The notes under the pieces are model-generated. The model had not been told where the DNA came from. It saw only the letters and a list, made by a program, of their open reading frames with translations, and did not search any database. Below are positions 13,711 through 15,055 of a stretch of 64,000 bases of DNA, in pieces. Origin of the DNA: Mesorhizobium loti (lineage in GTDB: Bacteria > Pseudomonadota > Alphaproteobacteria > Rhizobiales > Rhizobiaceae); NCBI GenBank assembly GCA_002356515.1, contig AP017605.1, positions 4,225,001-4,289,000 of the forward strand, read 5' to 3'. Positions within the stretch are counted from its first letter, which is position 1, and each line of letters starts with the position of its first letter. The position numbers and the translations under genes are program-made.

Positions 13711-13768
13711 TCTTCCTTCCCCCCTTGTGGGGGAAGGTGGATCGGCGCGCAGCGCCGAGACGGATGAG
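13711..13768. repeat. Left arm of a long palindromic intergenic repeat, interrupted by the IS
   Basis: It contains two hairpins: CCTTCCCCC/GGGGGAAGG (13715-13737) and TCGGCGC/GCGCCGA (13742-13758), then CGGATGAG. The reverse complement of the segment at 15003-15055 has the same layout (CCTTCTCCC/GGGAGAAGG and CCGCGC/GCGCGG hairpins). The two arms are therefore an inverted pair now separated by the IS110 insertion. The first hairpin could terminate mbfA transcription. Confidence 0.75.
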
Positions 13769-13778
13769 CAACCGTGTT

Positions 13779-14720
13779 TCAGACGCAAGCCGGGTTCCAA
13801 GGTTTGTCGTCCCGGATCATGGCGTTGAGGGTTGTGATCAGCTTGCGCATGACGGCAACGATGGCGACCTTTGCCACCTTGCCTTTCGCTCGCAGGCGCT
13901 GGCGGAAAGCGGCGAAGACGGGATTATGCACTCCGGCGCTGAGCGCGGCCATATAGAGGACGTTGCGGACCGGCTCGCGGCCACCCCAGATACATCGCTT
14001 GCCTTTGAGCTTGCCGCTGTCGTGGTCGTAGGGGGCGAGCCCGACAAGGGCGGCAATCCGCCGGTTGGACAAGCGGCCCAGTTCAGGCAGCTGTGCGATC
14101 AGTGTGGCACTCAGGACCGGGCCGACACTGGGAGTTGAACGCAGCAGGCGGTCGCGCCGTGCCAGGGCATGGTCGGCCGCGATGGCTTGGGCGATGCGTT
14201 TGTCGAGCAACAGGATGTCGGCACTGAGCCGGGTCGCTCGCCGCTTGGCCAGGCGCTTGAGAGCGGCATCGCGCACGTGTTCGAGCTGGTTGTTGACACG
14301 GCTGAGCTCGGCTTGGAGCTGGCGCCGCGCGGTGACCAGTTCGATCACCAACTCCAGACTTGGATCAAACTCCACCGGATGCACCGGCAACGTCGCAAGG
14401 AAACGGGCGATCACACGTGCATCGAGGCGATCGTTCTTGGCGTTGACGCCGGCCGCCCGTGCGAATTGGCGCAGCCTGTGCGGATTGATGCGACGCACCG
14501 GCAGGCCTTTCTGCCACAGCGCCTTGAGCACAGCCCGCTCATAGCCGCCGCTCGCCTCAAGGCCGACGGCGGCGATCGCCCGACCCGACAGACGCTCGAC
14601 CAATGCCGCATAACCGGCTTCGTCATTGTCGACTGCGAACAACTCCCCTGTTTCCCGAATGGCCACGTCCAGTCGCTCCTTGGCCACATCGATGCCGACA
14701 TGCAGTGCAATTTGTGTCAT
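13779..14720 (-). CDS. IS110-family transposase (DEDD recombinase)
   Basis: 313 residues, full length for the family. The RuvC-like N-terminal domain shows the DEDD residues: D11 ([13 protein letters not shown]), E55 (GLEASGGYE), D97 and D100 ([14 protein letters not shown]). A coiled-coil middle part follows ([20 protein letters not shown]). The C-terminal Tnp domain has [34 protein letters not shown] with the probable catalytic serine, and [17 protein letters not shown]. No frameshift or stop is seen, so it may be active. It works with a structured bridge RNA encoded beside it (see 14721-14905). The target is a palindromic repeat that presumably occurs many times in this genome. Confidence 0.95.
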
Positions 14721-14905
14721 CTTCTGATCCCTTCCTTGCTGGTGCGGGGTCGAACCCTAGCAACCGTTCGGGCTGTGGAAGATGCGGTCGGAGTTCCTTG
14801 CTCATCCACGGGCTTATGCCAAGGGGTGTACGGGCTTCCGCCGCAACGGGTGATCCGGTCATGACCCGGGTCACCCGTCAGCCCTGATCCTGCATGATTC
14901 GAGAG
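14721..14905 (-). ncRNA. Candidate IS110 bridge RNA with target- and donor-binding loops
   Basis: Transcribed with the transposase, this region would give, in order, three structures. First is a 5' hairpin (ACGGGTGA 14846-14853 against TCACCCGT 14871-14878). Second is a target loop: AGGGGTGT at 14822-14829 equals the right flank 14911-14918, and CTCATCC at 14801-14807 is the reverse complement of the left flank 13762-13768. The two are separated by a GGC-ATAA-GCC hairpin. Third is a donor loop: AGCAACCGT at 14759-14767 equals the left junction 13767-13775, and CTTG at 14735-14738 complements the CAAG of the right end, separated by a GGGT-CGA-ACCC hairpin. Guides pair with opposite strands, as in known bridge RNAs. 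The right-end donor guide is short. Matches are seen directly; RNA function is inferred. Confidence 0.8.
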
Positions 14906-14912
14906 ACACAAG

Positions 14913-15055
14913 GGGTGTTCCAGCGGAGTGAGACGCTGGTGTTGTGCCGTAGTGCCCCGGTTCAGTTGAAAGGTAGCGTCAAGCTGGAGCACCCCTCATC
15001 CGACCGCGCTTCGCGCGGCCACCTTCTCCCACAGGGGGAGAAGGAAGAGCCGCGC
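14913..15055. repeat. Continuation and right arm of the interrupted palindromic repeat
   Basis: GGGTGTTCCAG (14913-14923) is the displaced end of the left arm. A loop of about 60 bases follows, then CTGGAGCACCCCTCATCCG (14984-15002) and two hairpins, CCGCGC/GCGCGG and CTTCTCCC/GGGAGAAG. The intact CACCCCTCATCCG here is an unoccupied copy of the IS target. No gene was seen between the IS and the ABM-domain gene. Confidence 0.7.

Follow-up and report, generated by a model that had tools for sequence, protein, structure and literature searches.

What guides a mobile element to its insertion site is the question raised by a locus of Mesorhizobium loti in which a transposase gene is preceded by a long noncoding stretch. 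The window, meaning the whole stretch of 64,000 nucleotides that was analysed, contains this locus, and the original prediction had placed there an IS110 bridge RNA whose guides could be read against the very site in which the element sits. We are highly confident, from comparisons of sequence, that the window element is a recently mobile IS110-group insertion sequence moving by bridge-RNA-guided recombination. The features that can be read in the sequence are the element's anatomy, junctions, empty sites and copy number, the covariation of target and guide, the covariation within the RNA structure and the conserved catalytic residues.

The window element belongs to the IS110 group and is present in six full-length copies

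The element spans positions 13769..14912 on the minus strand (1,144 bp, with one copy of the 2-bp core counted), limits that were set by six full-length genome copies whose flanks diverge outside them. An element had been predicted at 13761..15002; its existence was borne out, but the proposed end at 15002 takes in a separate, intact target at 14990-15001. Inside lies the gene for a 313-aa DEDD recombinase (13779..14720, minus strand), which matches Pfam PF01548 (E 2.6e-21) and PF02371 (E 1.4e-16), both above the cut-offs, as well as the IS621 transposase 8wt6 (E 1.6e-30, 110 bits) and ISCro4 (9t56, E 2.1e-27). On the IS621 alignment, the four acidic DEDD residues and the serine of the DSG motif are in register, the position of the catalytic serine S241 having been counted by hand; the roles of these residues in the IS621 transposase are described in excerpts of PMC11208158. 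A DEDD RuvC-like domain together with a Tnp domain that has a catalytic serine places the protein in the IS110 family. The noncoding ends inside the element, about 190 bp upstream of the gene and 10 bp downstream, place it in the IS110 group; its RNA lies upstream with the target matches in IS110 order, and not downstream with the order reversed as in the IS1111 group.

The surrounding genome comprises 8.45 Mb in 4 contigs and carries 6 copies of the element, every one full length. A protein scan of genome contigs returned only 2 loci, 88% and 39% identical. A Mesorhizobium temperatum record (L007) carries the element with a recombinase 88% identical, and a distant plasmid search gave 48 records, of which 42 fell at 60-80% identity.

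Within the element the six copies are identical except for one column, at which the window copy has an extra base (14885) found in no other copy, between the LE end and the 5' stem-loop of the RNA. This private base could be taken to mark the window copy as a dead relic that was once mobile and is now inactive, with an RNA that no longer works here. The base falls outside the guides and the consensus stems, the recombinase reading frame is open, and the encoded protein is identical to that of the other five copies. We therefore regard a dead relic as unlikely and treat the window copy as a recently mobile element.

Empty sites define a CT core and a repeated target

Copy flanks and empty sites place a CT core at both ends of the element, at 14911..14912 for the 5' (LE) junction and at 13767..13768 for the 3' (RE) junction, both on the minus strand. 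The left flank reads ACACCC-CT, the right flank reads CT-CATCCG, and the joined element ends read ACGGTTG-CT-TGTGTC. The target sequence of the window element is ACACCCCTCATCCG, with its CT core, and all six genome copies are inserted at ACACCC-CT-CATCCG.

The flanks of each copy were joined over a single CT and compared with fetched relatives, with at most 14 spanning hits listed per site. Among the matches listed, the window site is uninterrupted across the full 600 bp in six sequences (L092, L103, L085, L107, L110 and L104); L092 has the predicted junction in nearly unchanged surroundings, and L085 differs by one base beside the junction. The site of copy L002 is uninterrupted across 600 bp in L133, L129 and L130, and that of copy L005 in L173 (1-600) and L172 (151-600), again among the matches listed. 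For copies L003, L004 and L006 the listed hits are repeat-level matches, and orthologous empty sites are thus available for 3 of the 6 copies. The original prediction had stated how an empty site should read, and the orthologous sites in relatives do read CGGATGAG joined to GGGTG. Insertion at this specific target is scarless, with no duplication beyond the core, as judged from orthologous empty sites of 3 of the 6 copies. The two junctions share with the empty site the dinucleotide CT and nothing more, which makes CT the whole core; it is fixed by the empty site independently of any scan for guides.

The exact target 12-mer, CACCCCTCATCC, occurs 45 further times in the genome, compared with 0 occurrences of a reversed control pattern. 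Its only occurrence in the window is a second intact target copy at 14990..15001 (plus strand), which lies outside the element in the neighbouring repeat arm. This copy starts 77 bp past the insertion, on the opposite arm of the inverted repeat pair that the element has entered, and the element could therefore insert again next to itself.

The noncoding end reads as a bridge RNA with two pairs of guides

The predicted RNA is encoded on the minus strand, as are all of the features described here. Its 5' stem-loop (14846..14878), one of the hairpins originally proposed, was recovered in the predicted fold, and its helix 1 has double-sided changes in 10 of 11 pairs among related elements. Next comes a target-binding stem and loop (14784..14844), whose helix 2 has double-sided changes in 7 of 8 pairs. 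This loop carries the left target guide ACACCCCT (14822..14829) and the right target guide GGATGAG (14801..14807), both supported by a geometry-limited scan, fixed model columns and target covariation, and between them a small hairpin, GGC-AUAA-GCC (14811..14820), predicted in the single-sequence fold. The donor part follows with the left donor guide ACGGTTGCT (14759..14767), taken from the same scan and fixed columns, a small hairpin (14746..14758) that corresponds to consensus columns 149-161 and is absent from the single-sequence fold, and the right donor guide CAAG (14735..14738). This last guide is the shortest and weakest; it is given by the model columns and by the scan, where it reads GCAAG (5 bases). 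In transcript order the parts are thus left target guide, small hairpin, right target guide, left donor guide, small hairpin and right donor guide.

The four matches from which the RNA had been predicted are all present: AGGGGTGT at 14822-14829 equals the right flank at 14911-14918, CTCATCC at 14801-14807 is complementary to the left flank at 13762-13768, AGCAACCGT at 14759-14767 equals the left element junction at 13767-13775, and CTTG at 14735-14738 is complementary to CAAG at the other end. Left guides are identical to the top strand and so pair with the bottom one, right guides are complementary to the top strand, and each includes the core. In IS621, according to the available text of PMC11208160, the 5' side of each loop pairs with the bottom strand and the 3' side with the top strand, core included. 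The predicted layout of 5' stem-loop, target loop and donor loop, the strand sense and the shared CT core agree with this published model.

By analogy with published work on IS621 and its relatives, from which transcription, the circle, RNA binding and strand exchange are carried over, the element would leave as a circle whose joined ends, ACGGTTG-CT-TGTGTC, serve as donor. An RNA would be read from about 14905 towards 14728 and fold into the 5' stem-loop, target loop and donor loop. Its first loop would present two guides for the REP-like repeat ACACCC-CT-CATCC and its second loop two guides for the joined element ends, and the recombinase would exchange strands at the shared CT, giving insertion with no duplication beyond the core. 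Candidate hexamers for a promoter formed at the circle junction differed between lineages with no consistent pattern, in a comparison run without a shuffle control.

Scans for guides exceed shuffled sequence under a fixed geometry

The original prediction had also argued that so close a fit of guides to one insertion site could hardly be chance. In an unrestricted guide scan, quartets arising by chance came close in score to the real ones, and the top quartet of the window element had a TG core in place of CT and a different right donor guide. This search was rejected as too free and replaced by a fixed geometry, then by a covariance model. In the geometry-limited scan the window element (L001) scored 28.9, compared with a maximum of 18.6 when the RNA region was shuffled 100 times with dinucleotides preserved, and only 1 of the 100 shuffles gave a complete quartet of any kind. 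Among 72 loci scanned with the fixed geometry, 40 had a full quartet and 32 had none. The geometry limits were chosen after the unrestricted scan had been viewed; the shuffle score is therefore post hoc and counts as supporting evidence only. The claim of a non-chance fit stands in that the score beats the shuffles and, independently, in that guides and targets covary in other elements; it is this covariation across other elements, in sequence comparisons, that is the independent support for guiding.

The RNA structure is conserved among related elements

We aligned 11 different elements with MAFFT and derived a consensus structure, which consists of the 5' stem-loop, a target stem and a donor stem with an inner hairpin. 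Double-sided changes were found in 19 of its 35 pairs. Pairing was kept in 89.6% of cells, compared with 75.1% after shuffling, and the covariation score was 0.394, compared with 0.161 for shuffled alignments (0/500 shuffles reached the observed value) and at most 0.100 when partners were slid. The donor stem has 3 pairs that are kept in 11/11 sequences, one of them with double-sided changes. Helices 4, 6 and part of 7 connect guide bases with one another and may reflect pairing between guides while the RNA is free. When folded by itself, the window RNA gave the 5' hairpin and the target loop, with the donor-loop stem absent, and its fold energy was only modestly low (z -2.14; 4/200 shuffles were as good). 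An Rfam search returned no matching family for the window RNA.

The two loops were used for a covariance model, R1, which was built from the 11 elements and run over 86 sources. In the window, R1 fits 14728..14846 on the minus strand (85.7 bits, E 1e-16), the check that had been proposed for the RNA; the window sequence is itself among the 11 that built the model. R1 gave 91 matches at E up to 1 over the 86 sources, with a match at E up to 0.01 in 79 of them, a count that includes the model-building sequences and their copies and in which the window and L001 are the same element. Five loci of one genome (G645) matched only at E 0.063, and L069 and L076 had no R1 match.

Target guides change together with the insertion site

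Guides were next read from fixed R1 model columns and compared with the flanks of their own and of other elements. The 91 matches, minus the window row (the same as L001), 2 near contig ends and 4 that had no downstream recombinase gene, left 84 rows, among them the five weak G645 rows; these fall into 37 guide types, each entered with one representative. Two loci, L050 and L053, overlap, and two elements are therefore counted twice among the 84 rows. They come from one genome (G521), in which two IS110 elements adjoin on opposite strands with different bridge RNAs. The left donor guide served to locate the right junction, no more than 1 base of shift being allowed, the left junction was the best match in a 55-base range, and permuted pairings were given identical placement freedom.

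Across the 37 types, the left target guide fitted its own junction at a mean of 6.72 of 8 positions, compared with 5.70 for the junctions of others, and the right target guide at 6.16 of 7 compared with 4.36; in both cases 0/10,000 permutations reached the observed value. For the 28 held-out types, which have no model-building member, the right guide scored 5.82 compared with 3.96, with a permutation maximum of 4.82 (Watson-Crick pairs only). Right-guide matches were 7/7 in 24 types, 6/7 in 7 and 5 or fewer in 6, and the 24 perfect types use 13 distinct right target guide sequences. With a wider search among the six poor types, L120 and L063 reached 7/7 and L061 and L066 reached 6/7; for L066 the donor part is 6/7, and the target of its copy L074 is 5/7. 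The right target of L045 stayed at 4/7, and L118 lies near a contig end. The guides also track quite different targets, such as CCATC-CT-TCGA (L055) and CTGAGGT (L057). In a quick tree of 36 recombinases, in which 14 of 33 inner branches have support below 80, the right target guide changes at least 26 times.

Donor guides match the element ends in most types, the left donor guide being itself what placed the junction. Handshake pairing with the donor, by the bases that follow the right target guide, fits in 27 of 31 types at the first position and in 15 of 31 at the second; these are raw counts for two bases that vary little. Another lineage (L016, L017, L018 and copies) is inserted at a different repeat-like sequence, CACCT-CTCCCC; its right donor guide is apparently shifted by one base, and its left target guide contains a wobble pair.

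The target lies in a palindromic repeat and several lineages share it, both of which would suit a recombinase that recognises the REP-like repeat as a protein or through its hairpin, with the guide-like matches being captured target sequence or chance. Such recognition leaves unexplained why, across lineages, guides taken from fixed columns of the RNA and the flanking target change in step. It fares no better with two near-identical RNAs, of genomes G134 and G138, in which a changed right target guide goes with correspondingly different targets. All 10 elements read in G134 (of 12 element matches) are at CT-CACCTG, and those read in G138, G105, G026 and G019 (2 elements) are all at CT-CATCCG. 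Compared by eye over the R1 region, the G134 and G138 RNAs differ by 3 substitutions and 1 indel. Two of the three substitutions fall in the right target guide, which goes from GGATGAG (G138) to AGGTGAG (G134), and the left guide is the same in both, with a G-T wobble that fits the A-containing target of G138. In these sequences, a two-base guide change in G134 is accompanied by a matching target change. We consider recognition by protein or hairpin very improbable and retain guidance by the bridge RNA.

A distant element occupies the same nucleotide

In a further genome (G020, L083:2531-2835), the orthologous repeat, downstream of the same gene, is interrupted by another IS110-type element at exactly the nucleotide that the window element uses. 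Its protein is partial (PF02371, E 3.6e-06), and all 6 places found continue with CTCATCCG; one junction is visible, as the contigs end inside the element. An element in L012, which was not used in model building, has the same end sequence, carries the guides CACCCCTG and GGATGAG, and sits on a long branch in the recombinase tree. Taken together, the same-nucleotide insertion and the L012 guides indicate that one site is matched by the guides of two distant lineages. The RNA at L012:1064-1179 (minus strand) adjoins the first IS110 element of G019 on the opposite strand, where it adds another bridge RNA whose guides match that REP-like target.

The RNA overlaps the presumed ribosome-binding site of the recombinase gene

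The 3' side of the donor-loop stem, GGAAGGG (14728..14734, minus strand), is also the presumed ribosome-binding site of the recombinase gene, and a GGAAGGG-like stretch combines the two in the window element and most other types. An in-frame ATG follows within 19 nt of the right donor guide in 31 of 37 guide types, and of the remaining six, some have GTG or TTG and others only a later start or, within the range examined, no start at all. The RNA ends about 7 nt from the start codon and overlaps the presumed ribosome-binding site, as would be expected if the noncoding stretch served chiefly as leader of the recombinase messenger, with a fold that regulates and does not guide. A leader of this kind would not explain guide segments that track the target, and we give it very little credence as an alternative to a guide RNA, although the RNA may have a double role.

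One stretch would serve both as the donor-stem 3' strand and for ribosome binding, and the guide and messenger roles may be in competition. From this overlap we tentatively suggest that the bridge RNA might double as a control switch of its own recombinase, a possibility that we hold to be less probable than not. If it were true, a transcript folded and bound as guide could not be translated, and recombinase, by binding the leader of its own messenger, would stop more of itself from being made and set the guide-to-protein ratio. No such proposal was found in the available parts of PMC11208160 and PMC11208158 or in the related literature searched.

Comparison with known systems

From a single raw sequence it is possible to read the guides, target and donor of an IS110 element, and comparing genomes is enough to check them. 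For tests of bridge-RNA tolerance, the related elements provide a panel of natural guide-target pairs (37 guide types, including the two-base switch), and rhizobial REP-like repeats are linked to repeated colonisation by RNA-guided elements.

As far as their accessible parts go, PMC11208160 describes bridge RNAs of IS621, PMC11208158 their structure, PMC11187229 seekRNAs together with examples of natural redirection, and PMC1525189 the targeting of REPs by IS110 elements, among them the rhizobial ISRm19. Bridge RNAs, REP targeting and natural retargeting are thus already published; among the papers listed on rhizobial REPs, IS110 and bridge RNAs, none on this particular element was found.

Like ISRm19 of Sinorhizobium meliloti, an IS110 element with 4/4 copies in REP sequences, the window element is rhizobial; the likeness is one of description, and the excerpts of PMC1525189 describe no RNA or guides for ISRm19. 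With ISEc21 and ISMch6, IS110-type elements with a seekRNA, it shares both target matches in the upstream noncoding region and their order, and natural retargeting through few base changes occurs there as here. These two elements have other targets, and for them target matches are described and donor matches are not, as far as the available text of PMC11187229 goes. From IS621 of E. coli, also of the IS110 group, the window element differs in targeting another repeat family, in a protein that is only moderately related (110 bits) and in a shorter right donor guide. It resembles IS621, as portrayed in the accessible portions of PMC11208160 and PMC11208158, in its recombinase family and catalytic residues, in having its RNA encoded in a long noncoding 5' end, in how the four guides are ordered and oriented by strand, in the CT core and in insertion into REP repeats.
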